Notes under the pieces: model-generated
Told to the model about the DNA's origin: nothing
The model's database searches: none
The model's input: only the letters and a program-made list of their open reading frames with translations
Part shown: piece after piece, positions 2,662 to 38,170 of the stretch
How the letters are laid out: every line of letters starts with the position of its first letter
Numbering within the stretch: position 1 is the stretch's first letter
DNA from: an uncultured Oscillospiraceae bacterium
GTDB taxonomy: Bacteria; Bacillota; Clostridia; Oscillospirales; Ruminococcaceae
Direction: 5' to 3'
DNA: 38,190 bases
NCBI GenBank assembly: GCA_934463345.1
Contig: CAKSJL010000011.1
Coordinates: 1-38,190, forward strand
Translations under genes and position numbers: made by a program

Positions 2662-4692
2662 TTATAGAACGCCTCTGTAATAAAGGCCTCTTGTTATATT
2701 TTCTTTTTTTGCTCCACCGTTTTTATAGCTGTCAATAATGTCAGATATCTCCGACGGAGTTTCATCAGTAAAGTAAAGCGTCAGGAAGTCCATTCCTTTA
2801 AGTTCGTCAAGTTTGTCGGCAAGGTACAGAACCTGTGAATTGAGAAGCTCGGTATAGCCGCCATGACAGGCGATTTTAAAACTTCTGCCTGTTCTGTCAG
2901 TAAGCTCCTTACGACACTTTCCGCAGCCGGTTTCATTTTTGACCGGGCAGTTTGCAGTAAGCATGACAGGAAGTCTGCCGTATGCAATAATTCCTTTGGG
3001 AATAGGTGAGGTTAACGCCTGAGCCTGGCTGAGCTTCAGCTCAAACGAAAGGGTGATGCTCTCAAGACCGGATTCTGCGAGAACTCCGGCGCTGTATGAA
3101 TTGGCGACGTTAAGACCGAAATCGCCGTAAAGCTCAAAGCCGTATTCCGCACCAATCTGTATATAAGCTGCATTATTGCACATCAGCCTTTTAAAGCCAA
3201 GCTTTGCCGCACATTCAAGATTTTTTCTGAGCTTTTTTTCATCTGAAATGAACCTTGGCGGCTCTGCAATGATCTTGTCTGCATATTTTGCCGTATCAGC
3301 GCACAGAAGCTCAAGCGGAATAATTATCATGTCTGCTGAAAGTGCAGCGTTTAAATGTTTTAAATCGGCAATTCTTGCCCGTATATGTCTTTTTCTGCTG
3401 TGATATTCAGCTGGTATTTCCGGAAGTCTGCCGGAAATATTTTTCCTGAATGTGTTTTTTTCAATTCTCAGGCTGTTAAGCTCCGATACAGCTCTTCGGC
3501 GCAGTTCGTTCAGTTCGCCGGCGCTGACGGAAAGTCCGTCGTCAATTACAGCTTCGATTTCATCAAGGCTGTAAACTGTATCGCCCAGTTTTGAAAGCTG
3601 TCTTTCAAGAAATTCACAGTTGACCGGCTTGTTTATAGCCTTTTGAGGAACATTTCCCGTTACGGATACGCTGTTGTCCGAATCGTCTGATGCAGTCAGC
3701 CTTAACGGACTGTCATTTTTTATTTCAGCTGAAAAATGTATGCCGCTGACCTTTCTTTCGGTTCTGTAAAGCTTATGTATTTCCGGAAATACTGTTTTTG
3801 CGGAGGTCACATCCTCCTTTTCCCTTGTCCCGAACATGTCGTTTCTTTTCCCGGTGAAATACCCGTCAGTAAAGCCGCTTCGTGAGAAAACCGCTCTGAG
3901 CAGTTCCATATCATACGGTTTCCCTTCAAGGGCATTTCTGAACGACGAAACAGCAGCAGCCACATACTCCGGACGCTTCATCCGACCTTCGATTTTAAGG
4001 GATGTGACGCCCGAATTTATAATTTCATCTGTATGCTCTGCAAGCGAAAGATCTTTAAGCGAGAGTGCGCATGAATTTCTGTTTCCGGCAGCCGAAAAAG
4101 TAAGTCTGCATGGCTGCGCACAAAGACCTCTGTTTGCGCTTCTCTGACCGATAACAGCCGACAGGTAGCATTGACCTGATACGGACATGCAGAGTGCGCC
4201 ATGCACAAAAATTTCAGTTTCAATTCCAAGAGAGGAGATCTCAGCTATTTGTTTCGCTGAAAGCTCTCTTGAAAGCACAACTCTTTTGAAGCCGAGCTTC
4301 TTTGCAAAAAGCGCTCCGGCAGGGGAGTGAACGGTCATCTGTGTTGAGGCGTGAAGCCTGGCTTCCGGACAAACAGATTTTATTATATCAGCTGCACCTG
4401 CGTCCTGAACAATAAATGCGTCAGCTCCGGCAGAAACCGCTGTTTTTATTGCCTGTACAAACTCCCTGACCTGACTGTCAAAAATAATTGTATTTACAGT
4501 TACATAAAGTTTTTTTCCGTAAAGATGACAGAGATCAGCCGCTTTTTCAAGCTCGTCAGTGTCAAAGTTGGCAGCATTCTGTCTTGCAGAAAATGTTTTT
4601 CCGCCGACATAGACAGCGTCAGCGCCGCACCTTAATGCTGCTGTGAGCGATTCGTACGATCCGGCAGGCGCTAAAAGCTCGGGCAGCGGCAT
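2662..4692 (-). CDS. U32 family protein, RlhA/TrhP-like RNA hydroxylation enzyme (annotated as collagenase-like peptidase)
   Basis: The N-terminal 300 residues carry the U32 signature: LLAPAGS near the start, GADAVYVGG, and the cluster HGALCMSVSGQCYLS ... NRGLCAQPCR with Cys168, Cys175, Cys191 and Cys195. In studied relatives this cysteine set binds an Fe-S cluster. At 676 residues, with a DUF3656-like middle section, it resembles Escherichia coli RlhA (YdcP, 23S rRNA C5-hydroxylation of cytidine) more than the shorter TrhP (tRNA uridine hydroxylation). The peptidase name is historical. Its start ATG overlaps the zapA stop in a TAATG arrangement, which implies translational coupling; dut follows. 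Which RNA it acts on cannot be told from sequence alone. Confidence 0.85.
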   Translation of the reverse strand: MPLPELLAPAGSYESLTAALRCGADAVYVGGKTFSARQNAANFDTDELEKAADLCHLYGKKLYVTVNTIIFDSQVREFVQAIKTAVSAGADAFIVQDAGAADIIKSVCPEARLHASTQMTVHSPAGALFAKKLGFKRVVLSRELSAKQIAEISSLGIETEIFVHGALCMSVSGQCYLSAVIGQRSANRGLCAQPCRLTFSAAGNRNSCALSLKDLSLAEHTDEIINSGVTSLKIEGRMKRPEYVAAAVSSFRNALEGKPYDMELLRAVFSRSGFTDGYFTGKRNDMFGTREKEDVTSAKTVFPEIHKLYRTERKVSGIHFSAEIKNDSPLRLTASDDSDNSVSVTGNVPQKAINKPVNCEFLERQLSKLGDTVYSLDEIEAVIDDGLSVSAGELNELRRRAVSELNSLRIEKNTFRKNISGRLPEIPAEYHSRKRHIRARIADLKHLNAALSADMIIIPLELLCADTAKYADKIIAEPPRFISDEKKLRKNLECAAKLGFKRLMCNNAAYIQIGAEYGFELYGDFGLNVANSYSAGVLAESGLESITLSFELKLSQAQALTSPIPKGIIAYGRLPVMLTANCPVKNETGCGKCRKELTDRTGRSFKIACHGGYTELLNSQVLYLADKLDELKGMDFLTLYFTDETPSEISDIIDSYKNGGAKKENITRGLYYRGVL

Positions 4693-5036
4693 TACTTTTC
4701 AGCTTCCTTTTCAAGCTTTTCCAGTCTGACCTTGAGAGCCATGTTCTCCTTTAAAGCAGCGTCACGTTCTATCCTTGCCTTTCCGGCTTCGTCAACATAT
4801 TCCTTTGCCTGTGCCCTTATGCTTTCAGCGTTTGCCTGAGACTTGCTTAAGTCGTCAAGCGTTGAAAGTGCAACCATGATAGCGGCGGAATATGGCGAAA
4901 TAGACGTTGCTCCGGATGATATATCATTTATTTTCTTTTCAAGCAGCTTTGCAAGACCATATACATAGCTCGGAGCTTCCTCGGTCTGGAGCATATACTC
5001 CTTGCCGCAAATAATAACCTTTACTCTGTTAAGCAT
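4692..5036 (-). CDS. zapA: ZapA-like cell division protein
   Basis: Small FtsZ-associated protein that promotes Z-ring bundling. I chose the ATG at 5036 (114 residues, starting MLNRVKVIICGKEY) because GGAG lies 6-7 nt before it; the frame is open to 5096, but upstream ATGs at 5096 and 5048 lack a ribosome binding site. The N-terminal globular ZapA domain is visible (VKVIICGKEYMLQTEE, then YVYGLAKLLEKKI), followed by a long C-terminal coiled coil rich in Ala, Glu, Lys and Arg from about residue 55. Its stop overlaps the next gene's start (TAATG). A U32 gene next to zapA is a recurrent clostridial arrangement as far as I recall. Confidence 0.88.
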   Translation of the reverse strand: MLNRVKVIICGKEYMLQTEEAPSYVYGLAKLLEKKINDISSGATSISPYSAAIMVALSTLDDLSKSQANAESIRAQAKEYVDEAGKARIERDAALKENMALKVRLEKLEKEAEK

Positions 5037-5212
5037 TTTTTTCTCCATTCTGAGTTTTGTAAAAACATGTCTGTCCAGGAAATATATGTGCATCAAGGCT
5101 GCTGAATAACGCCATCTGACAGTAAATTCAGGCAGCCGGCAGCCTATACAATATAATTATAATATATTTTGCACCAAATGAAAATACCCCGGATAAAATT
5201 TTTTCAGGTTTT

Positions 5213-5797
5213 TCAGAAATATCTTATAAGAGCTGCAACCTTTCCGAGTATTTCAACATCGTCTGCTATGATAGGATCCATACTGTCATTTTCAGGCTGG
5301 AGTCTGAAATGTCCGCTTTCCTTGTAGAAGGTCTTGACTGTTGCGTTTTCGCCGTCCACCAGAGCCACGACAACATCACCGTTATCGGCATAGCTTGTCT
5401 GTTCGACAACGATCAGGTCGCCGTCATATATTCCAATGTTTATCATGCTGTCGCCCTTTATTTTCAGGGCAAACAGCGGATTGGAATAGGTTTTTTCAGA
5501 AGTAAAACTTATATATTCAGTTATGTTTTCAATTGCTGTTATCGGAATTCCGGCAGCAACGTTTCCGACAACAGGCACGCTTGTGGAAACCTCCGGACCC
5601 TTGAGCTTTATTGCTCTGTTGTGGTTATCCATTTTTTCGATGTATCCCTCATCAACAAGAATACTTATATATTTATGAACTGTCGATGTTGATTTTATAT
5701 TGAGAGCATTGCATATCTCCCTGATTGTAGGAGGATAACCGTTTTCGATCGATTCCTTTATAAACTGGTAAATGGCCATAGCCTTTTCATTAAGCAT
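5213..5797 (-). CDS. lexA: LexA repressor
   Basis: SOS-response repressor that self-cleaves when RecA is activated. The product is 194 residues from ATG 5797, chosen because CGGGGA precedes it at about 5 nt; an in-frame TTG at 5821 would overlap the end of murC and lacks a site. N-terminal winged helix: PPTIREICNALNIKSTSTVHKY is the recognition helix region. The cleavage site Ala82-Gly83 lies in VAAGIP, the catalytic serine is Ser117 (KGDSM) and the catalytic lysine Lys155 (ATVKTF). It follows murC by 13 bp, so the two are likely co-transcribed. I saw no DinR-type GAAC-N4-GTTC box upstream of murC or of lexA. Confidence 0.95.
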   Translation of the reverse strand: MLNEKAMAIYQFIKESIENGYPPTIREICNALNIKSTSTVHKYISILVDEGYIEKMDNHNRAIKLKGPEVSTSVPVVGNVAAGIPITAIENITEYISFTSEKTYSNPLFALKIKGDSMINIGIYDGDLIVVEQTSYADNGDVVVALVDGENATVKTFYKESGHFRLQPENDSMDPIIADDVEILGKVAALIRYF

Positions 5798-5810
5798 AAT
5801 TTTCCCCGTT

Positions 5811-7223
5811 TCACTGTCCAAGCTTTTTGTATATCATTTTTGCGACCTTATAAACGTCGCCGCAGCCAAGCGTTATTACGAGATCGCCCTCCTGCGCATT
5901 TTCACATACATAATTGCAGACATCATCAAAATTTCTGTATTTTCTTTCATCAGTATATTCAGCATTTCTGTCCTGCGGGAAGCAGACGCAGCCGTCTATT
6001 TTTGCCGCAAGATCCTCAGCAAAAATGTTATAGGTGTTTTTTTCTCTTGAACCCATTATGTCAGTAAGGACTGCTATATCAGGTATTGAAAGCGCCTTTG
6101 CAAAATCGTCAAGCAGAAGGGCGGTTCTTGAAAACGTAAATGGCTGAAATACTGCCCATACACGCTTGTAGCCCATATTTACAGCCGCTTCAAGAGTTAC
6201 TGAAAGCTCTGTCGGATGGTGGGCATAGTCGTCAACGATCGTAACGCCCTTTGCCTTTCCTATAAGCTCAAAGCGTCTGCCGGCGCCTCTGAAATCACAA
6301 AGTCCCTTACGGATATTTTCAAATGAAACTCCAGCATAGAATGAAGCGGCGGCGGCGGCAAGAGAATTTAAGACGTTATGCATTCCGGCAACGTGCAGAG
6401 TGATTTTTCCCAGAGCATCGCCCTTATGCATAAGAGTATATTCTGTTTCCATTCCTGAAACCCTTGTTATGTTTTCAGCGTAATAATCATTTTTCGGATC
6501 AAGACCAAAGGTTATGATTTCCTTTCCCTCAATGCCGTTTACCGCCCGGAGAGTATTTTCATCATCGCCGTTTATTATAAGAGCCTTTGTTGCCATCTGA
6601 GCAAACTTATGGAATGACTTTATAATATTTTCAAGGTTTTTGAAATAGTCGAGATGATCCTCGTCGATATTGAGTATTACCGCTACATCAGGATAAAGCT
6701 TCAGGAATGTATCGACAAACTCGCATGATTCGCAGACCATGATGTCACTTTTTCCCGCACGTCCGCTTCCTCCTATGCAGGGGAGCTTTCCGCCGATAAA
6801 CGCTGAAAGGTCAACGTCTGCCGTCCAGAGAATCTGTGCTGTCATGGAAGTTGTGGTAGTTTTTCCATGAGTTCCCGAAATACATATTGCGTTGCTGTAC
6901 CAGCTTGTAACTATTCCTAATAGTTCGCTTCTTTCCAGAACCGGAACGCCGCTTGCCTTTGCTGCAATAAGCTCCGGGTTGTCAGCCATTATTGCGGCTG
7001 TGTGTACAATCAGGTCTGCGCCTTCGATATTTTCAGCTCTCTGACCGAGAAAAACGGGTATTCCCATTTTTCTGACAGCTTCGAGAGTTTCAGTTTCATT
7101 GTTGTCAGAGCCTGTAAGATAGTAACCCTGTGAGTGAAGTATCTGTGCAAGCGGATACATTCCCGAGCCGCCGATACCTATAAAGTGAATGTGTTTTTTT
7201 CCTTTTAATATATCTTTGTTCAT
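5811..7223 (-). CDS. murC: UDP-N-acetylmuramate--L-alanine ligase
   Basis: Cytoplasmic Mur ligase adding L-alanine to UDP-MurNAc with ATP, the first amino acid of the peptidoglycan stem peptide. Features: Rossmann-type HFIGIGGSGM at 13-22, ATP-binding GTHGKTTT at 117-124, central ILNIDEDHLDYF, and the C-terminal VDDYAHHPTE motif typical of MurC. Length 470 residues is normal. It ends 13 bp before the lexA start (the stop TGA is at 5813-5811). It is divergent from spoVG with 118 bp between them. Confidence 0.97.
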   Translation of the reverse strand: MNKDILKGKKHIHFIGIGGSGMYPLAQILHSQGYYLTGSDNNETETLEAVRKMGIPVFLGQRAENIEGADLIVHTAAIMADNPELIAAKASGVPVLERSELLGIVTSWYSNAICISGTHGKTTTTSMTAQILWTADVDLSAFIGGKLPCIGGSGRAGKSDIMVCESCEFVDTFLKLYPDVAVILNIDEDHLDYFKNLENIIKSFHKFAQMATKALIINGDDENTLRAVNGIEGKEIITFGLDPKNDYYAENITRVSGMETEYTLMHKGDALGKITLHVAGMHNVLNSLAAAAASFYAGVSFENIRKGLCDFRGAGRRFELIGKAKGVTIVDDYAHHPTELSVTLEAAVNMGYKRVWAVFQPFTFSRTALLLDDFAKALSIPDIAVLTDIMGSREKNTYNIFAEDLAAKIDGCVCFPQDRNAEYTDERKYRNFDDVCNYVCENAQEGDLVITLGCGDVYKVAKMIYKKLGQ

Positions 7224-20235: not shown

Positions 20236-21405
20236 ATGAAGGAAAACAAACTAAAAGTCGGTATAATTACCTTTCACAGAGGAGATAATTACGGAGCAGT
20301 TCTTCAGACTGCGGCACTGAGGGCAAAAGCGGCAGAGTATGCCGGAGATGCTCGGGTTATAGATTACAGGTGCAGCGCAATAGAGGATTTTTACAAAGGT
20401 AATTATTTTCCGCGACCGAAAAAAAATATTCTGTTGTGGATGAAGCAGGTTATAAATTGGAGAAAAAAAGATAAGACCTTTAAGGAAAAAAAAGAGAAGT
20501 TTGAAAAGTTCAGAGAATTGTTTAATATGAGCGAAAGCGTATCCGGAGACTCAGACCGAAGCCGGGTGGAAAGTGAATATGACGTTATTCTGACAGGAAG
20601 CGACCAGATATGGAACGAAAGAATAACAAAGGGCTTTGATCCGTTTTACTGCTTTGTCAGATGCGGCAGCAACAAATCTCTGGTTCTTGCATCATATGCC
20701 GCTTCGCTTGGCTCAGTAAGCAGTTTTGAAAATTGCTCAGGCAAGTACCGGGAAGCAATTATGGCTTATGACTATGTTTCAGTAAGAGAGTCTGACGCAC
20801 TTGAGTACCTGCGTGAAAAATATCGTGACGATGTATGCAAGACTATCGATCCGACGCTTCTGGTCGAACCTGATTTCTGGAGCACCATGGCACCGGGAAC
20901 GCAAAGAAAAAAATATCTGTTTTATTATGATGTGGCTAAGAATGATACAGCAAAGGGGATTGCATTAAAGCTTGCAAAGGAAAATAAGCTTGAGCTTATT
21001 CATTTCTGTGACGATATAATGCCATGCAGAAAAAGAAAACTGGTAACAGATGCAGGTCCTGTTGACTTTCTTAATCTTATACGCAGTGCGGAAATGGTTG
21101 TGACATCATCCTTTCATGCGACTGTTTTTTCAATTGTATTTAAAAAACGCTTTGTTACTGTTGCACATCCTGTTACAGGAAGCAGAGTCAGAACGCTTCT
21201 TGGGGATGTCGGGCTTGAAGAGTGTCTGTACAATGGTGATCTGGAAAAAAATATGTCTTTCAGACCTGATTATGAGAAAGTATTTTCAAAGCTCAGTTTA
21301 TTAAGAAAAAGCTCTGAAGCATATCTGGAAAAAGTTTTTAAGGATGCTGAAAACAGAAAAAACAATTCCGGATATTCCGGAAAGCTAACGGAGGAAAAAT
21401 GTTAA
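20236..21405 (+). CDS. Polysaccharide pyruvyl transferase family protein
   Basis: Probably transfers a pyruvate ketal from phosphoenolpyruvate onto a surface glycan, as CsaB and WcaK relatives do. The 389-residue product has the family pattern: GIITFHRGDNYGAVLQTAAL near the N-terminus (9-28), VILTGSDQIWN around residue 116, a mid-protein KTIDPTLL, and the C-terminal TSSFHATVFSIVFKKRFV. The conserved SSFHA histidine is the expected catalytic or PEP-contacting residue. The last seven bases overlap the flippase start, so translation is coupled. AAAGG precedes the ATG at 5 nt. Confidence 0.9.
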   Translation: MKENKLKVGIITFHRGDNYGAVLQTAALRAKAAEYAGDARVIDYRCSAIEDFYKGNYFPRPKKNILLWMKQVINWRKKDKTFKEKKEKFEKFRELFNMSESVSGDSDRSRVESEYDVILTGSDQIWNERITKGFDPFYCFVRCGSNKSLVLASYAASLGSVSSFENCSGKYREAIMAYDYVSVRESDALEYLREKYRDDVCKTIDPTLLVEPDFWSTMAPGTQRKKYLFYYDVAKNDTAKGIALKLAKENKLELIHFCDDIMPCRKRKLVTDAGPVDFLNLIRSAEMVVTSSFHATVFSIVFKKRFVTVAHPVTGSRVRTLLGDVGLEECLYNGDLEKNMSFRPDYEKVFSKLSLLRKSSEAYLEKVFKDAENRKNNSGYSGKLTEEKC

Positions 21406-29734: not shown

Positions 29735-29775
29735 ATCCGGAATCCTTTTTACTGGGGTTCCGGATATTTTTATTG
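29735..29775 (+). terminator. Terminator of fucO
   Basis: An ATCCGGAAtCC stem (29735-29745) pairs with GGttCCGGAT ending at 29765, with a T-rich loop, followed by ATTTTTATT. The stem is nearly the one used after the NYN gene at 19059. Confidence 0.8.
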
Positions 29776-29897: not shown

Positions 29898-29927
29898 TTG
29901 ACAAAGCGGTGTATTTTGTGTTAAACT
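29898..29927 (+). promoter_or_regulatory. Predicted promoter of the Nif11/giant-protein unit
   Basis: TTGACA (29898-29903), 18-nt spacer, TAAACT (29922-29927). The -35 is perfect. Transcription would begin near 29934-29936. Confidence 0.7.
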
Positions 29928-29982: not shown

Positions 29983-30264
29983 ATGTCAGGAATTAATGAG
30001 CTTAAAAGCAAAATGGCAAGCGATCAGGATTTTCTGAATATGCTTGTAAATGCAGGAGATCTGGCTTATGAGAAGGCAAAAGAAGCCGGATTTGAGGTCT
30101 CAAAGGAAGAATGGAACACACTTTGCGACCAAATAAGCGGTGACAGCGACGGTGAATTATCTTTGGATGACCTTGATAATGTTGCCGGCGGAGTCGGTGC
30201 ATTTGAGGGAATACCAAGAGTACCGATCAACAAGATCGATGATGTACTAAGAGGAAAAATCTAA
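29983..30264 (+). CDS. Nif11-like leader peptide precursor (putative RiPP or exported peptide)
   Basis: Product of 93 residues. The first 68 match the Nif11-like leader: MSGINELKSKMASDQDFLNM, then AYEKAKEAGFEVSKEEWNTL, and an acidic GELSLDDLDNVAGG ending in the double-glycine cleavage site (Gly69-Gly70). The remaining 23 residues (71-93), including PRVPINKIDDVLRGKI, would be the mature peptide. It has no Cys, Ser or Thr, so lanthionine and thiazole chemistry cannot apply to it; the only Cys (48) is in the leader. I chose ATG 29983 because GGGAG lies 8 nt before it; the ATG at 29965 has none. The next gene starts 19 bp downstream in the same direction, so they are probably co-transcribed. No modification enzyme or C39 transporter is in the window. 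Confidence 0.85.
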   Translation: MSGINELKSKMASDQDFLNMLVNAGDLAYEKAKEAGFEVSKEEWNTLCDQISGDSDGELSLDDLDNVAGGVGAFEGIPRVPINKIDDVLRGKI

Positions 30265-30283
30265 ATTGAAAAGGAGTGACATA

Positions 30284-33200
30284 ATGATTAAAAATGTCAG
30301 AAATGTGTGTCTCAGAGCAGTCAGCGCAGTGTTGTCGCTGGCATGTACTGTGACAGCAATTCCGATGCAGGCTTATGCCGATGAGATTATTCCCGATAAT
30401 GTGTATATTCAGGAAATTGAGATGACTGAGGATATTCTTTCGTCTGATGTCTTTTATCTTACAGCCCCGAATGCACGTCTTTTAGAGGGAGCAAATGAGA
30501 GATATTATCTCAGAATAGGCAGAGGCGGCGACTCTTCATCTGCTGCAAGCGTGAATGTAAAGATTGCTGACCTCACTGCGAAATACGGCGATGATTATGA
30601 AATCTATCTTCTTGACAGCGATGTAAAGACTGAGAATCCGGAGGATAATCAGTCGCTTCTGGAGATGATGGAGGGTGAAGATTATACTGTAACGCCTATA
30701 GTTGAGGAAGATGAATTCAATGAAATGGCGGAAAGTGACGATGAGCTGAAACAGAGTGCACAGGAGGCTGTCAATGAATCCATAAAGTTTATTGAGGATG
30801 CTGCGGCGCTTACTCCTGCTGAACCGGCTGACGGTTCAGAAAATGTAAGCACAGATCCGCTTCAGGAGGCTCGTGCAAGATACACAGGTATTGAGGGTGA
30901 ACCGCAGAATGTAACTGCATCACAGGATACCTTTATGCAGATCCAGGAAATTGCCGATGTTCTGACTACAGCGGTGGTAGGAGCTAATCTCAAGGTGGAT
31001 TTTGCTGAGGGAGAGGACTCAAAATATATTGTTATTGATGTTGATAACAATTTAAAGAGCGACGGAGACAGATATTTTTATCTAATGCTTTCTGATCCTG
31101 AGGGTACAACGACAATTAGTTCAGCGTCAAGTTGTGCAATGACAATCGTTGATGACGAGGAACAGGAACCGTCCGAAGTAAGCTTTGGCGAATGCACATT
31201 CAACGAAGAGGGCGATACGCTTTCAGTTGAGATCAAGAGAAAAGGTGCGCTGAATTCGCTCGCAGATGTTCAGCTGATAACTGAGGGTATAACAGCTCAG
31301 GCAGGCAGAGATTTTTCTGTAGTTGATATGTCCGTCGCATTTCCGATGGGTATTGATACAAGAACGATTGATATTCCTGTATGCAGCGATTATCTGACTG
31401 ATGATGCGGAATTCAGCCTGAAACTCACCAATAATCAGGGAGCAAATGTTGTTACAGCTGAAAAGACTATTGTTATTTCAGGTGCAAATAACTTTGAAGT
31501 ACCGCAGCTTTCTGATCTGGATGAGGGTGAATTCTCCAGCACACTGCCTGAATCGCCGGAATACATGGCGGCAAAAAACAAGAGAACTCTTGGAACGATT
31601 GAAACCGCAGGCGGAATAAACCTTACCAACAGAAGCGGTGGAAGTGCTGATAATCATTTTACCGGATATAACGGAATGTATGGAAACAGCTACAAGCTCA
31701 GATGGCAGGGCGGAAACGGCTGGAAGAGATTCTGGCATAACTACAAGGGTTCTGTCGGAGCAGAGTGGAGAATGAGTGCCTACAGCGGATTTGAGTATGC
31801 CGGAGCGCAGGTCAACTGGTCAAAGAGCAACACCTGTGCAAGCATCAGCGCCGGATTCGAGGGACAGTGGGGATATGAAAATTCATCTGCCCGAGAATTA
31901 AAGCATGGTGCTGCGTATTCAAGCAATAATTCTCTGAACAATACAACAACGAATCTTTTCAGTAACATTACAGATCCTATTTATATAAATATTGTAAACA
32001 GAGGAAACTGTGACAACTGTAACGATTTGTGGATAAATTCAATCAAGCCTATCAAACGTCCTTTTATCGTTGAGCTGAGCGAAGCTGATAAGCTTAAATT
32101 CCTCCAGGAAGACGGTTCAATGAAGGTGGACGATGGTACAGCAACTTACCTTGCTGTTGATGGTGCGGAAAATAACGATAAAACACAGTCCGTTATTTAC
32201 TATGCTGATGAAACCGTTACATTCAAGCAGGTTGTCGGCAAAAATGTTTCAACTCCATACACATATCTTAAGCAACTGAAATCAACTGACGGATTCATGT
32301 TTGCTACTTTCGGTAACAACGGAAGCTCAACATACAGCAAGAATCTTTCAACACAGTTTATTAATGATAACAGCGCATACAATAATACTAAGCTTATAAA
32401 GTTTTATGACAATACATACATGAGAAACAGCAATCCGAACAGCGGATGTGAATACGGAAAGTATGGTTCGATCAAGCTGAAGCCGACTTTTGACTATAAG
32501 AATGCAGAAGTCAGAGTAATTGTTCCGTCAGACAATTTTGGTTATCTTAATATAAGCGGAACAGATAAGAAAATTTCTTCTTCGACTTCGTATACTTATC
32601 ATCTTGGCGATACACTTCAGCTTTCCACAAAAATGTATGACCAGTATTCCAAGATATATGAACCGGTAGGTTTTGAAGTTAAGTATAAAACTAATAAGTC
32701 CGATTCAAACTGGAAGGAAATAAAAAAGGTTACATATCAGAACGGAAAAGCATATCTTGATTCAAACCGCCGTCTTGCAAACGGTTACTATGAAGTTACT
32801 CCTCTTTTCCAGACAAAGGGTAATCTGGTTACTGTAAGAATTGCTGAAAGTGATCTGGGTAATTTTGATACGTCATATGGTCTTTTTGCAACAAACATGG
32901 TAAGCAGCAAGACAATCAACTACAAAAAGTATAAGGAATATGTTGTTTACAGTGATGTTAAGAGCAAAAACATTTATTCCCTTGCTGTAAAGTCAAAGAA
33001 TAAGAATGTTTATCCTGTATGGAAATCTGTTTCTGAAAAGGATAAATACAGCGGAGAAGTTTTCTACTTTGAGGCACAGGACAGTAAGGATAAAAATGTA
33101 ATTGAACTTTCTGTTGAAAAATATACTGATTCGCATGATTATTATCACACATTGAGCGGAAAGGTATTGTCACGAGTTTACAACATGCAGACAGACGGTC

Positions 33201-36200
33201 TGGACGAAACAACCATGAAACCGCATTCAGGAGCTTTGATAACAGTTGGTGATTCATATGCAGTTGCTGGAAAGGACGGCTCATTCAAGGTTTCAGGAAT
33301 ACGTGCAGTGCCTGGTACAAGTGTTCGTTATCTGGTAACAGTTAACGGCGAAGTTCTTCTCAAGGAAAAGAAGCTCGGTACAAAGGCAAAATCTTCTGTT
33401 CAGAAAATAACTCTGCCTGACACAACAGTCAAGGAAGTTAAGCTTATTTCCAATGAGGTCGGAAATGTATTTATCAATACTGAAAACGGAAGTATTTTAA
33501 ATAACATTGACGTATGGGTTGAGGATATGAATAATGCCGGCTACAGCATTATTGCCGATCCTGACCAGACTATTAAGGTAAGAGCACAGTGCAGTGCGGC
33601 AGTGTCATATATGATGCCTGAAAAGAGTACTGACGGCAGCGTAGTTGAAAAAGAAGCCAAGGAAAATCTTACAGACGTTACATTTGTTATATATGATAAT
33701 GAAAGCGAAATAAAAGCTGAATACCCGGCAACATTTGACTCAGAAAATTCAAACTATTATTCCTCTATTCCTCTTAAGAATATTAGTCCTGGATATGGTT
33801 TGTATGTAAGAGTCAAGACAGATAAGTCATTGTCCGGCTTGTCTGGTGAAAAGATGGTATATAGTGACGCATACACAGGCTATTTCTTTACACAGGATAC
33901 ATCTGCTGAAATGCCTCCGGTTGAAGCGTCAATACAGCCGATGACAAATATGAACTTCATTGAACTCCCTCTCCTCGGAGATTCAGGATTCAACTTTGAC
34001 TTCCCATTTGTATCCGTTTCAATTGACAAAACTGATACAGGTTATCGAATGAGCATTGGCGTAGGTGTATTACAGGTTGTTGATAAGATAAGAGGAAGCA
34101 ATATATCAGATTTTGATGATGTAACTGGTATAAAGGATATTTTCTCAATAAAGCATCCTTTTGATACATTCTCAAAGGGCATCAAGGAATCTGCAAGCTT
34201 TATCAGCAATTTAAATGATGTTGCAAAGAAATCTGCTGATGCAGCCAAAAAGGCAACAAGTGCGCTCGGAGCGCCGACATGGAAATTCGATGTTCAGTTT
34301 GGAGCTTATTTTGAATTTACCTATGTAGAGCTTACAAATCCTGAAAACGGTGCAGTATATACTGATGCTATATTTACGGGAGTTGGCGGCTATATAGGCG
34401 TATCCGGCGGATTCCAGATGGCATGGTATACAATTATTCCTGTTGTATTCCTCCCGGCATATTTCGGTATTGAAATTGATGCTTCTATTCTGGGATACTT
34501 TGGTGCGGCAACTGACCAGTCAAAGCCGAAAATCACATATGAGAGCGCAACAAATGCTAAGGTGGATTACGGAAAATCTCTCGGCAAGTTTGATATGTCG
34601 GTCCGTATGTCAGCAAAGGTTCAGGTATATGTTGGCGTAGGACTCTGCGGACTGCTTGGTCTGCGAGGAGGAGCGACTGTTGAGGTTATGGGACAATATG
34701 CGCCTTCTGAAGTTGTGAGCGACTGGGGTGCGGCAATTACCTTCACAGCAGGTATATGGGTTGACCTGTTCCTGTTCTCAATTCCGCTACAGTACAAATT
34801 CCCTGAACTGAAGTTTGGTTCATTCAAGGAAATAGCAGAAGCATCTCAGCAGATACAGAACAATGTAAAGGCAAAAAGCAACTTTGAACTCAGAGCGCCT
34901 TATTCTACAAAGGCTTCAAGCTGGCTGCCTTCCGGAACAGCGTCAAATAATACTGTAAAGAGCAATGACGAACTCAGCAGTCTGCTTCCAGGTTCACCTG
35001 AATATATGGCAGGTTTTAGCGAGTCGAGCAGCTATACGCTTGTTTCAGACGGATATGAACATCCGGACGTACAGCTTCTGAAGCTTTCAGACGGCTCAAT
35101 ATTTATGGCGTTCCTTGATACAGACACATCAAGAGAGGATTCAGAGCGTACAGTTCTTAAGTACGCAGTATATAAGGACGGAAAGTGGTCAGATCCAGCC
35201 GTTGTTTCAGATGACGGAACAGCTGACTTCCAGCCAAGCATCTGTGAGATGGATAACAGCAGAGTCATGATCGCATGGCTTTCAAGCGATCCTCAGAAGC
35301 AGATATCTGAGGAAGCAGAAGATTATCTGGCATCACTTGAGGTTTATACGGCAGTAATTGACTATGACGCAAAGACTCCTGTATCAGAAGTAACACGTCT
35401 TACAACAGATGAATACTATGATTATCTGCCTCTTGCTGCATACGATGAAGTGACAGGCGACAGAGCAGTTTACTTTGTTAAGACTGCATCAAATGGTTCA
35501 GCTGTTGAAATGTCAAATTCATACACAAATGACTGTGTAGTTGTTTACATGCTTTATTCCGATCCTGAAAATGACGGTGAGGGAAGATGGCTGTTTGATT
35601 ATTACTATGATGATGAAGTAGGAAGCGAAGAAGAAAAACAGATTCTTATTGATAACTGGAAAGGTCAGAGATTCCTTGCATCTCCGATTCCGGAGTTTGG
35701 AATTGATGTACCAAATATCTCAGACTTTACAGTAACAACATATAATGGTCTTGCAGTATATGCTTATACAATAGACCAGGATTCAAGCAACGATACATCA
35801 TTCGATAAGGAATTGTTCGTACAGTTCTATGACTTTGAAACTCATAAGACATATACGCCGGTAAGACTTAGCAATGATAATGTACCGGATGCAATTCCGC
35901 AGTTTGTAAGAATCGGAAGCGGTGAAGAAGCTTATACAGCGCTTTTCTGGTACAGAGATGAAAAAGACATTGCATATGTTGATATAACAGATCTTATCAG
36001 AAATGGTGTTGATGAAGACGGTCAGATCCTTGATGAGTATATGCAGAGAGAGGGTATGACAGGCATTGACAGAATCTATTCATATGTTGGAATCGGTTCT
36101 GACGACAGCAACGGATACAAGTCTATGTCAGACTTTAAGCCGATTGTTGACGGAGATGATGTATATATCGTATGGACGCAGATAGCTGACGGAAAGAATG

Positions 36201-38170
36201 AAGGAGAATTGTGCCGTGAGGTATTTGCAACAGCGCTTATCCATCCGGATGAGAATGATGAAGAAAACATTGGCTGTGCATGGGCAAATCCATATCGCTT
36301 AACCTATGCTTATGCATGCACTGATGAACCAGCTGTTGCTATTGACACAAACGGCAACATGATGGTAACATATAATCAGTATAATCAGGAGATTACAGAA
36401 GATCCTGAAAATCCGGTTAATATCACTGATTTTGTTCTGAAGGCATCATACATGGAACCATGCGGTGCAGTTGATGTTGAAAACATAGAAATTTCAGACG
36501 CAACACCAGTTGAGGGTGAAACAGTTAATATTACATTTGAGGCAGTAAATAATGGTCTTACCTATGCAGCAGGCTATACTGTCGGAGTGTATGCTGAAAA
36601 GGATGGAAAATCAGAGCTTATCAAAACAATTGAGTCTGATACAAATCTTATTCCTGGAGAAAAGGAAAATTATTTAGTTGAGTGGGAAGCACCGGCAGAT
36701 GCCGAGGGATACGTTATTAAAACAGATTCCTATGAAAACGGCGGAAACTGGACAAATCACTCTTACGCTGAAAGTGAGCCATTTATCAAGAGAGCTGAAT
36801 ACATTGTTGACCATGTAAGTGTGAGTCAGGATGGAGACGGCTTTACAGTAAGCTATGACGTTACAAATACAGGTAATGCTGAATCTACTGATGAAGATGA
36901 ATTTGACATGATCCTTGTCGGTCCTTACTGTGATACATTCGGCTGCACAAAGGAAGAATGCATGTTTGCTGAAGTTCCGGTTGGCGGAATTGCTGCCGGC
37001 GAAACTAAGTCATTTACAGAAAAGCTTGATGTACCGGTTAAGGTATTTGAAAAGTATGGATATGTAAATTGTCTTGCAATTATAAATGACAAGGACGGCA
37101 AACAGCTGACAGACGGTGAGGACATTAGAATTGGTGTTTCACAGCCTCTGAACCTTAAGCTTAACGGAGAGGATTATCCGACAGAAATTACAATGTCAGT
37201 GGGCGAAAGCTTAAACCTTGATGTAAGCTGTACACCAGCATTGATAAGCAATAATCTTGAAACAGTATTTGGTTCAGACGACAGCGATATCGTTGTAGCT
37301 GACGGAAATACAATTAAAGCGGCTGAAGCAGGTACAACTGTAATTCATGCCAGTGCAGGAGCATATGGCAATTCAATTCCGGATATTACTGTAAAGGTAA
37401 TTGACGGCAGTGGATTCACCGTAAGAAATGTTGATGAAGGTATTATTATTAAGAAATATATCGGTGAGGATACAGACAGAATTGAAATCCCGTCAGAGAT
37501 AGACGGCAAAAAGGTTGTAGGTGTTGATGACTTTGCATTTGGTTCAGTTTCTGATGATGTTATAATCACAGTACCTGATACACTTATGAGTGAGTATATC
37601 GGTGATGAGGCATTTATGACATATGCTGTTGTAAATGAACAGATCATTGAGAAGTCAGGCGGTACAACAGTAAATGAAGTACTGAAATACTGGATAAACG
37701 ATGTTGGCGGAATGAACTATACTGATGATCAGATTGCAGATGCTGTTGCAAAGGTTCTTGAACATATTGGTGACACAAAGGGCATGTCAATGTCTGAGCT
37801 TGTTATGGAAGTTCTGAGAAATGCTGATAATCTTGGTTTCTCTCAGGAAAATCTTGATAAGCTTGAACTTGCGCTTTCTCTGATGTCATATAATAAGGTT
37901 AAGCTTGAAGGTCCGGCAGACACTGATTCAGAAAAATATGCAAGCGGTAAGATAAATCTTGAGTATATTATTTCTGAAAATGGTCTTAAGGGTGACGTTA
38001 CGCTTGACGGAAAAGTAAACCTTTATGATGTAATAGCAATAGCTAAATACGTCATGGACAGCAAAAAATATCCGCTTTCAGATGAAGCAATCTCCAATGG
38101 TGATGTAACTGAAAACGAAAAACTGGATATTTATGATGCTATTGAAATTGCAAAGATTATTATGGCATAA
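30284..38170 (+). CDS. Giant secreted multidomain protein with C-terminal dockerin
   Basis: Product of 2,628 residues from ATG 30284 (AAAAGGAG at 7 nt; the TTG at 30266 precedes it). Signal peptide about 1-33 (ending MQAYADE). Calx-beta-like beta-sandwiches about 60-402 (DDYEIYLL, SDGDRYFYLMLSDPEG, VDDEEQEPS, DDAEFSLKLTN). An unassigned region follows to about 950, then a CarboxypepD-regulatory-like fold about 956-1045 (GKVLSRVYN, GKDGSFKVSGI). A Gly- and hydrophobic-rich section of amphipathic strands occupies about 1223-1516. A sialidase/propeller-like section at about 1583-2056 contains LKLSDGSIFMAFLD and CDGKWS-type turns (KYAVYKDGKWSDPAVVS). CARDB-like domains at about 2062-2283, Big2-like 2286-2376, a BspA-like LRR stub 2377-2453, and a dockerin at 2570-2628 (GDVTLDGKVNLYD, GDVTENEKLDIYD). 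The motif LPxSPEYMA occurs at 421-429 and 1568-1576. No catalytic site is recognised; a structural, adhesive or cellulosomal role is inference. Confidence 0.85.
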   Translation: MIKNVRNVCLRAVSAVLSLACTVTAIPMQAYADEIIPDNVYIQEIEMTEDILSSDVFYLTAPNARLLEGANERYYLRIGRGGDSSSAASVNVKIADLTAKYGDDYEIYLLDSDVKTENPEDNQSLLEMMEGEDYTVTPIVEEDEFNEMAESDDELKQSAQEAVNESIKFIEDAAALTPAEPADGSENVSTDPLQEARARYTGIEGEPQNVTASQDTFMQIQEIADVLTTAVVGANLKVDFAEGEDSKYIVIDVDNNLKSDGDRYFYLMLSDPEGTTTISSASSCAMTIVDDEEQEPSEVSFGECTFNEEGDTLSVEIKRKGALNSLADVQLITEGITAQAGRDFSVVDMSVAFPMGIDTRTIDIPVCSDYLTDDAEFSLKLTNNQGANVVTAEKTIVISGANNFEVPQLSDLDEGEFSSTLPESPEYMAAKNKRTLGTIETAGGINLTNRSGGSADNHFTGYNGMYGNSYKLRWQGGNGWKRFWHNYKGSVGAEWRMSAYSGFEYAGAQVNWSKSNTCASISAGFEGQWGYENSSARELKHGAAYSSNNSLNNTTTNLFSNITDPIYINIVNRGNCDNCNDLWINSIKPIKRPFIVELSEADKLKFLQEDGSMKVDDGTATYLAVDGAENNDKTQSVIYYADETVTFKQVVGKNVSTPYTYLKQLKSTDGFMFATFGNNGSSTYSKNLSTQFINDNSAYNNTKLIKFYDNTYMRNSNPNSGCEYGKYGSIKLKPTFDYKNAEVRVIVPSDNFGYLNISGTDKKISSSTSYTYHLGDTLQLSTKMYDQYSKIYEPVGFEVKYKTNKSDSNWKEIKKVTYQNGKAYLDSNRRLANGYYEVTPLFQTKGNLVTVRIAESDLGNFDTSYGLFATNMVSSKTINYKKYKEYVVYSDVKSKNIYSLAVKSKNKNVYPVWKSVSEKDKYSGEVFYFEAQDSKDKNVIELSVEKYTDSHDYYHTLSGKVLSRVYNMQTDGLDETTMKPHSGALITVGDSYAVAGKDGSFKVSGIRAVPGTSVRYLVTVNGEVLLKEKKLGTKAKSSVQKITLPDTTVKEVKLISNEVGNVFINTENGSILNNIDVWVEDMNNAGYSIIADPDQTIKVRAQCSAAVSYMMPEKSTDGSVVEKEAKENLTDVTFVIYDNESEIKAEYPATFDSENSNYYSSIPLKNISPGYGLYVRVKTDKSLSGLSGEKMVYSDAYTGYFFTQDTSAEMPPVEASIQPMTNMNFIELPLLGDSGFNFDFPFVSVSIDKTDTGYRMSIGVGVLQVVDKIRGSNISDFDDVTGIKDIFSIKHPFDTFSKGIKESASFISNLNDVAKKSADAAKKATSALGAPTWKFDVQFGAYFEFTYVELTNPENGAVYTDAIFTGVGGYIGVSGGFQMAWYTIIPVVFLPAYFGIEIDASILGYFGAATDQSKPKITYESATNAKVDYGKSLGKFDMSVRMSAKVQVYVGVGLCGLLGLRGGATVEVMGQYAPSEVVSDWGAAITFTAGIWVDLFLFSIPLQYKFPELKFGSFKEIAEASQQIQNNVKAKSNFELRAPYSTKASSWLPSGTASNNTVKSNDELSSLLPGSPEYMAGFSESSSYTLVSDGYEHPDVQLLKLSDGSIFMAFLDTDTSREDSERTVLKYAVYKDGKWSDPAVVSDDGTADFQPSICEMDNSRVMIAWLSSDPQKQISEEAEDYLASLEVYTAVIDYDAKTPVSEVTRLTTDEYYDYLPLAAYDEVTGDRAVYFVKTASNGSAVEMSNSYTNDCVVVYMLYSDPENDGEGRWLFDYYYDDEVGSEEEKQILIDNWKGQRFLASPIPEFGIDVPNISDFTVTTYNGLAVYAYTIDQDSSNDTSFDKELFVQFYDFETHKTYTPVRLSNDNVPDAIPQFVRIGSGEEAYTALFWYRDEKDIAYVDITDLIRNGVDEDGQILDEYMQREGMTGIDRIYSYVGIGSDDSNGYKSMSDFKPIVDGDDVYIVWTQIADGKNEGELCREVFATALIHPDENDEENIGCAWANPYRLTYAYACTDEPAVAIDTNGNMMVTYNQYNQEITEDPENPVNITDFVLKASYMEPCGAVDVENIEISDATPVEGETVNITFEAVNNGLTYAAGYTVGVYAEKDGKSELIKTIESDTNLIPGEKENYLVEWEAPADAEGYVIKTDSYENGGNWTNHSYAESEPFIKRAEYIVDHVSVSQDGDGFTVSYDVTNTGNAESTDEDEFDMILVGPYCDTFGCTKEECMFAEVPVGGIAAGETKSFTEKLDVPVKVFEKYGYVNCLAIINDKDGKQLTDGEDIRIGVSQPLNLKLNGEDYPTEITMSVGESLNLDVSCTPALISNNLETVFGSDDSDIVVADGNTIKAAEAGTTVIHASAGAYGNSIPDITVKVIDGSGFTVRNVDEGIIIKKYIGEDTDRIEIPSEIDGKKVVGVDDFAFGSVSDDVIITVPDTLMSEYIGDEAFMTYAVVNEQIIEKSGGTTVNEVLKYWINDVGGMNYTDDQIADAVAKVLEHIGDTKGMSMSELVMEVLRNADNLGFSQENLDKLELALSLMSYNKVKLEGPADTDSEKYASGKINLEYIISENGLKGDVTLDGKVNLYDVIAIAKYVMDSKKYPLSDEAISNGDVTENEKLDIYDAIEIAKIIMA

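Follow-up and report, generated by a model that had tools for sequence, protein, structure and literature searches.

Why does a gene for a small peptide precursor stand immediately before a gene for a giant secreted protein that ends in a dockerin? The two genes lie at the end of a 38,190-nucleotide stretch of DNA from an uncultured Oscillospiraceae bacterium (contig CAKSJL010000011.1; the whole stretch, positions 1 to 38,190, is called the window below). An earlier note on this DNA had described the first gene as encoding a Nif11-like precursor with a double-glycine (GG) cleavage site, and the pair as joining two systems not known to be linked. We find that the gene pair is real and recurrent in many, mostly gut, Clostridia, and that Nif11 and the dockerin are lineage-specific dressings of a general pair consisting of a double-glycine peptide and a giant surface protein. 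The evidence suggests that peptide and giant protein belong to a bacterial surface system that has not been described before. Our preferred explanation, to which we assign a probability of roughly one half, is that the two genes form one unit of this system, in which an unmodified peptide would be exported and act outside the cell with a wall-held giant protein.

The gene pair in the window

The small open reading frame (ORF) runs from ATG at 29983 to a stop at 30264, encodes 93 residues and has AGGGAG 9 nt 5′ of its ATG. The precursor matches the TIGR03798 leader_Nif11 model with E 2.8e-7 and 30.7 bits, slightly below the cut-off of 32.3 bits, and for that reason we term it Nif11-like and do not file it as a TIGR03798 member; Pfam Nif11 gave 14.7 bits (cut-off 23.8). 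The GG occupies residues 69-70, leaving C-terminal to it the 23 residues that the earlier note had given for the peptide. The leader has the double-glycine pattern of C39 peptidase substrates (GG or GA with hydrophobic residues at -4, -7 and -12).

After a gap of 19 bp, the giant ORF extends from ATG at 30284, with AAGGAG 5′ of it, to a stop at 38170 (2,628 residues). Its N-terminus was judged by eye to be a signal sequence. At its C-terminus, Dockerin_1 matches residues 2569-2624 with 21.8 bits when the whole protein is scanned (cut-off 22.9) and 27.1 bits when the last 110 residues are scanned alone, that is, above the level for a type I dockerin in the last 110 residues and just below it in the whole protein. 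Both ORFs and their described features are thus confirmed. Database copies of both proteins deviate from the window at a few residues, and each is listed with a longest contig of 72,601 bases.

A terminator-like hairpin and a promoter-like site both lie 5′ of the peptide gene and 3′ of a gene labelled iron-type alcohol dehydrogenase by eye from its translation. Pattern matching found no terminator-like site between the peptide and giant genes, and a weaker promoter-like match (9/12) at 30266-30295 that overlaps the giant start. Judged by these patterns, the two genes are likely to share one transcript.

Recurrence of the pair

A first scan, of one genome per species with a single giant as query, gave 0 relatives. 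A search of 5.8 billion proteins returned 45 giant relatives, including the window's own cluster, and a scan with a giant-family profile of 18 sequences gave 59 loci, mostly, judging by their titles, in draft genomes of gut Clostridia (loci, genomes and database proteins carry L, G and P numbers below). The giants have small neighbouring ORFs (about 45-106 residues) that encode a double-glycine leader and in most cases lie just downstream.

A peptide profile built from 15 seeds, which replaced a stricter leader pattern that missed many, was run over 11,417 small ORFs from 81 sources. It gave matches at E ≤ 1e-4 in 42 of the 81 sources (the 15 seeds are counted among the 42). All 42 lie on the strand of the giant and 41 within 150 bp of it, the exception being the peptide of L023, where the giant before it is in two ORFs. 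The peptide gene precedes the giant in the window, L088, L089, L090, L091 and L095 and follows it in the rest. Of the 54 giants flanked on either side by 250 bp or more, 38 have an adjoining peptide (the counts of 54 giants and, below, of 62 loci retain duplicate loci).

A profile of 39 peptides made without the window recovered the window ORF with E 7.2e-14 (2.4e-7 for the core only), the next of the 358 window ORFs having E 3.7. The window core scored 29.2 bits against 9.5 bits for the best shuffle (2,000 shuffles, 1,736 of them scored).

In a sample of 394 genomes from the order of the close relative G002, the peptide profile matched at E ≤ 0.01 in 10 genomes and the giant at E ≤ 1e-10 in 18. 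Six of the peptide matches span the core and all six adjoin a giant. In G283 (the L018 locus of the first round of scanning), G298, G329, G365 and G395 the adjacency is by position; in G117 a giant begins 35 bp behind the peptide and is cut by the contig end after 195 residues (45 bits). Four matches (G017, G152, G206 and G265) cover the leader only, in genomes with no giant match. By the local profile, a peptide also lies beside the giant in G111, G164 and G263. Twelve of 396 genomes in a family sample match the peptide profile, one of them (G475) across the core; its peptide lies 14 bp behind a giant in two adjoining ORFs, together with a C39 peptidase/ABC exporter (ABC1), a second ABC exporter (ABC2) and a short HlyD-like gene. 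A genus sample of 11 genomes gave no core-spanning peptide match.

Chance pairing was rejected on the adjacency counts, the sampled genomes and the window-blind profile. Confinement of the pairing to a single genome, which the earlier note had named as the outcome that would count against it, is contradicted by the many genomes in which the pair recurs. The note had also proposed looking for recurring Nif11-dockerin pairs: the pair of double-glycine peptide and giant recurs, whereas a Nif11-leader peptide beside a dockerin giant, where the context is visible, occurs only in the window.

Leader and core of the peptide

A core of the GAFDNVPRVPEHKIDDSLREKI type, homologous to the window core by alignment, is present in thirteen loci, behind a leader that is short and unlike Nif11. 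Most relatives found have such short leaders, and Nif11 was accordingly rejected as an essential feature. Window-type Nif11-leader precursors with the same core are present in the protein database (P0002, 81% identity; P0114, 66%), on contigs too short to reveal gene neighbours. A scan of 10 genomes with TIGR03798 gave 2 weak matches, neither above the cut-off. Among the papers listed in literature searches that lay outside most subscription journals, we found none on the core family of VGAFEGIPRVPINKIDDVLRGKI or on the peptide-giant pair.

The 40 peptides compared have L, I or V at -12 (40/40), L at -7 (39/40) and V or I at -4 (40/40), and their leaders end in G (-2) followed by G or A (-1). 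The script that located the site, in 40/40, required G[G/A] together with V/I/L at -4 and, a few residues earlier, either A or a hydrophobic residue, so the count at -4 is not independent of it. Such a motif, within the last 13 leader residues, is recognised by the C39 peptidases ComA and LahT, according to PMC6363468. Nif11 and short leaders can therefore serve the same kind of enzyme.

The cores of at least 15 residues (n=37, one shorter core omitted) have a mean length of 22 residues; 0/37 contain cysteine and 21/37 have a negative net charge. Core and giant distances are correlated (Mantel r 0.62, n=38, p 1e-4; L092 removed, L019 kept although its core has only 8 residues). Over 29 loci, the Mantel values were 0.68 for core-giant, 0.47 for core-ABC2 and 0.57 for giant-ABC2. 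This co-divergence fits a physical partnership, and shared inheritance alone can give part of it. The leader, the gene order and the wall anchor (S-layer domains, sortase signal or dockerin) are exchanged parts, and core and giant diverge jointly. The core was also considered as a mimic of a stretch of the giant and rejected, the best match of the core profile to the giants having E 5.3.

Other leader ORFs occur near the giants. A second kind stands directly before the giant in L012 (1366-1674), L015 (9570-9875) and L021 (3283-3588), with a common core around YYVMGFGEE or YHIMGFGDE; it lies 26 bp from the giant in L012 and L015 and overlaps the called giant start in L021. ORFs of 499 residues in L027 (8184-9683) and 462 residues in L037 (8295-9683) start with a Nif11-like leader that has GG; next comes a hydrophobic stretch, which includes a lipobox-like LTGC. 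These ORFs are accompanied by further leader ORFs near the giant.

Export genes beside the giants

The gene 5′ of the giant often encodes an ABC exporter, about 700-740 residues long. Of six ABC proteins scanned, all have TIGR03797 (NHLM_micro_ABC2) as their best-scoring NCBIfam model, and one exceeds its strict cut-off. Local profiles placed ABC2 in 40/62 loci with at least 2.3 kb before the giant, directly upstream (≤600 bp, same strand) in 27. As assembled from neighbour clustering and Pfam on single examples, the usual order is a Peripla_BP_6 lipoprotein, an HlyD-like protein, ABC1 (C39 peptidase in L009, 120.9 bits), ABC2 and the giant, with the peptide mostly after the giant; a second operon form has only a short HlyD-like protein, whose example gave no Pfam match.

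Peptide and ABC2 occur together. In the 45 loci with enough flank, both are present in 28, only the peptide in 6, only ABC2 in 1 and neither in 10 (Fisher p 2.3e-5, only a guide because the loci are related). The duplicates L092 (the L018 locus) and L089 (a near-copy of L088) were removed before this table and the leader count. The neighbour clusters common to at least 4/59 loci comprise exporter parts, regulators, the peptide and two families of very large proteins.

The giant protein and exchange of its anchor

No catalytic domain was found in the giant, which contains Calx-beta domains, a jelly-roll domain and a lectin-like beta-propeller (Table 1). Among viral proteins, Foldseek listed chiefly propeller, sialidase, fibre and attachment proteins, and phage records gave no match. 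The region of long strands (residues 1332-1505) received no fold name from fold searches, whose lists the propeller filled.

Precomputed annotation places S-layer homology domains in 26/45 giant relatives; P0005 and P0006 are among the giants that end, by eye, in sortase-type signals; and a dockerin C-terminus is found in the window's own cluster and in P0004, a 69% relative. An anchor pattern script, which recognised a dockerin in the window alone and assigned no class to 22/57 giants, was corrected by Pfam on ten giant tails: the window, L010, L029, L041, L047 and L095 have a dockerin and L009, L003 and L022 have S-layer domains, while L027 has a sortase-type signal below threshold. In L029, L041 and L047 a dockerin giant, an exporter and a short-leader peptide stand together, and L095 has a dockerin giant with a short-leader peptide. 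The two systems that the earlier note had regarded as unlinked are thus linked in L029, L041 and L047, through a short leader and not through Nif11.

Since S-layer domains or a sortase-type signal occupy the place of the dockerin in most relatives, the dockerin appears to be an anchor replacement. The window tail (residues 2356-2628) corresponds to a separate secreted dockerin protein in relatives, which points to fusion; the window anchor looks to have been replaced when the giant became fused with a dockerin protein from the Ruminococcus lineage. Group-4 dockerins of R. flavefaciens bind the wall-attached cohesin ScaE, according to PMC5301203 and PMC2930009. Cohesin matches are present in the relatives G001 and G002, and none of the six cohesin loci read contains a cohesin gene with a sortase signal.

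The genus sample also contains L108, where a distantly related giant of Calx-beta type has a tail that looks by eye like a dockerin. This giant is followed, at 2773-6189 on the minus strand, by an array of 15 leader-like ORFs, of which 14 have GG. Their cores vary, several ending in KRTYTP, KRSYTP or KRTYD[EK]DD, and some of the ORFs match the profile weakly. The array is flanked by the giant and a C39 exporter; a short HlyD-like gene is also present.

How the peptide and the giant may work together

On the sequence evidence, the most likely course is that the peptide is exported, cut after the GG and works outside with the surface-held giant. Of the earlier suggestions, that of a processed peptide acting with the giant is supported, action outside the cell being the best reading. 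A C39 exporter would cut the leader after the GG and release a peptide of about 20-24 residues that carries no modification. The giant itself would leave by Sec, and its attachment to the wall would depend on S-layer domains, on a sortase signal or, in the window, on a dockerin bound to a cohesin at the cell surface. Once exported, the peptide would bind to the giant or to a site that the giant forms, and would complete or switch a sugar-binding or adhesive function. In the window, the leader would have been swapped for a Nif11-type one and the peptide gene placed before the giant. We also consider it possible, if somewhat short of an even chance, that the two proteins form a two-part surface machine, in which the giant has its own peptide subunit, co-secreted via a separate exporter, that docks on it and arms or switches it. 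Docking might add a strand to the giant, or might even be covalent by way of the aspartate/lysine conserved in the core. The match of core and giant would stay constant, and the leader, the anchor and the gene order could be exchanged.

Several observations weigh against a joint function. Co-divergence of core and giant is also expected from genes merely inherited together. No peptide match accompanies 16/54 giants with flank (L010, L011, L034, L035, L042, L050, L053, L054, L057, L058, L094, L096, L097, L098, L099 and L102); some of these are broken or very distant, and L010 (70% identity) and L011 (38%) are neither. Likewise, 10/18 order-sample genomes with a giant match show no peptide (G002, G023, G032, G048, G067, G162, G268, G296, G319 and G348, the sequence of G296 not having been fetched), the giant being distant or cut in some. 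The genomes of L050 and L058, giants without a peptide, have TIGR03797 matches above the cut-off elsewhere, and in the window no exporter was found within 30 kb upstream. The closest giants, L007 and L010 (about 70% identity), belong to G001 and G002, draft genomes of unknown completeness, and keep the dockerin giant with no peptide beside it in the available sequence. Neither genome matches the peptide profile or the window peptide (the empty search with the window peptide is not conclusive) or has an ABC2 at NHLM level (best 268.8 and 310.8 bits). The export operon of G002 is broken, with a shortened lipoprotein, a whole HlyD-like gene, ABC1 cut after C39 and no ABC2. With no peptide seen and, in one genome, the operon broken, the giant can outlive the peptide in the nearest relatives, unless the drafts are incomplete. 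The decayed operon, L086 (10014-12356), lies in the same genome as L010, whose dockerin giant is intact elsewhere.

Other explanations for the pair differ in what the peptide does. We think it unlikely that the peptide serves as a pheromone. On that reading, a histidine kinase would detect the exported and cleaved peptide and restrict production of the giant to high density, and the two genes would be neighbours because they are under common control. Kinase and LytTR-type regulator clusters do lie near the giant in L002, L005, L016, L055 and L059 (Pfam GHKL and LytTR confirmed in L005 only), and the database relative P0151 is labelled 'ComC/BlpC family leader-containing pheromone/bacteriocin'. 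The kinase/regulator pair is nevertheless found in only 5/59 loci, some of them short, and the core motif is retained across distant lineages, whereas pheromones of this kind usually diversify. We similarly doubt that the peptide is a bacteriocin-like weapon, released in a crowded niche together with a giant whose sole task is to attach the producing cell to fibre or mucus. Peptide natural products are known to leave cells through NHLM exporters (PMC2887384), and L108, from the genus of the window's nearest relative, combines a giant, 15 leader-like ORFs with varied ends and a C39 exporter; the cores of the pair are by contrast conserved and not hypervariable, lack cysteine and are more often than not negatively charged, and no immunity gene was recognised among the shared neighbours, although no search was aimed at immunity genes.

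The earlier note had also raised a locus for a ribosomally synthesised and post-translationally modified peptide (RiPP) that continues beyond 38190. Sequence past that position is unseen, and Nif11-type leaders are described beside modifying enzymes (PMC2887384). No modifying enzyme was recognised in 20 other window ORFs (10 scanned with Pfam, 10 with NCBIfam) or among the clusters common to at least 4/59 loci, a clustering that an enzyme in three loci or fewer would escape. Because no recurring modifying enzyme was seen and no core has a cysteine, we regard a modified RiPP as improbable. It is similarly improbable that the peptide gene is a remnant of a lost export operon and its product no longer exported in the window species: such decay is seen in G002, and the window's 30 kb upstream hold no exporter, yet the full C39 motif and the core are kept in the window and in both Nif11-leader relatives.

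Comparison with known systems

Among known systems, the NHLM/Nif11 clusters (TIGR03794, TIGR03796, TIGR03797, TIGR03798; Haft et al., 2010, PMC2887384) resemble the relatives' loci in having a C39 exporter, a second ABC exporter and an HlyD-like protein, and the window in its Nif11-like leader with GG. They differ from the present loci, where no modifying enzyme is seen, the core is conserved and not highly variable, the partner that always recurs is a giant surface protein and most leaders found are short. The double-glycine peptides ComC/BlpC and LahA (AMS/PCAT; PMC6363468) share L-12, L-7, V-4 and GG/GA; here, unlike there, the partner is a giant wall protein, and a kinase/regulator occurs in a minority of loci. 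Dockerin proteins held on ScaE-type cohesins in Ruminococcus flavefaciens (PMC5301203 and PMC2930009) likewise are secreted, have a C-terminal dockerin and come from a cohesin-bearing lineage. Unlike them, the window giant has no catalytic domain that we found, and its dockerin is at the anchor position. The Calx-beta/S-layer-domain giants of Clostridia are the same protein family as the window giant up to about residue 2370; the entries returned by the protein-database search are unnamed or only domain-named, with no peptide partner noted.

Double-glycine peptides are routinely filed as bacteriocins or pheromones, and the giant-linked group would give them an unexpected role. The pair is also an entry point to the very large, unnamed surface proteins that gut and rumen Clostridia carry, and it suggests that a dockerin can be an exchangeable wall anchor instead of an enzyme tag.

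Features of the window and further genes

Table 1. Features of the peptide-giant region (positions in the window; residues are those of the giant).
Feature	Position	Strand	Basis or remark
Terminator-like hairpin, 12 pairs, then ATTTTTATTG	29735..29765	+	3′ of upstream iron-type alcohol dehydrogenase gene
Promoter-like site TTGACA-18-TAAACT	29898..29927	+	10/12 consensus match only; one of 7 in region
Double-glycine precursor, Nif11-like leader	29983..30264	+	ORF; TIGR03798 E 2.8e-7 (below cut-off); family profile
Leader, 70 residues, C-terminal end ELSLDDLDNVAGG (L-12, L-7, V-4, GG)	29983..30192	+	C39-substrate motif (PMC6363468)
Core VGAFEGIPRVPINKIDDVLRGKI, member of giant-linked core family	30193..30261	+	Alignment, profile, shuffle test
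Giant secreted protein, 2,628 residues	30284..38170	+	ORF, Pfam, protein-database search
First Calx-beta domain with low-confidence helical insertion, residues 53-294	30440..31165	+	
Second Calx-beta domain, residues 295-405	31166..31498	+	Pfam at 299-398, 59.6 bits (cut-off 27), E 3.7e-16
Jelly-roll domain, resembling those of carbohydrate-binding modules and other proteins, residues 438-594	31595..32065	+	
Long antiparallel strands, fold not named, residues 1332-1505	34277..34798	+	Middling to low confidence
Beta-propeller, lectin-like, residues 1576-2060	35009..36463	+	
Tail module, residues 2356-2628	37349..38167	+	Stand-alone 287-residue secreted protein in relatives, 52% identity (G002, G410)
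Type I dockerin, residues 2569-2624	37988..38155	+	Pfam

Elsewhere in the window, positions 20236-21405 give a weak CsaB-type pyruvyl transferase match (22.9 bits, cut-off 213.1) beside a glycosyltransferase-like gene. CsaB elsewhere serves the anchoring of S-layer domains, and the match is odd next to a dockerin-anchored giant. In L015, L021, L036 and L038, the giant and the peptide are followed by a member of a second family of very large proteins (2,261-2,853 residues). Near the giant or the short-HlyD operon, a STAS cluster is present in L018, L027, L037, L043, L055 and L059 (by Pfam in L027 only) and an anti-sigma-type ATPase cluster in L043 and L044 (by Pfam in L044 only); together, these gene types suggest partner-switching control.

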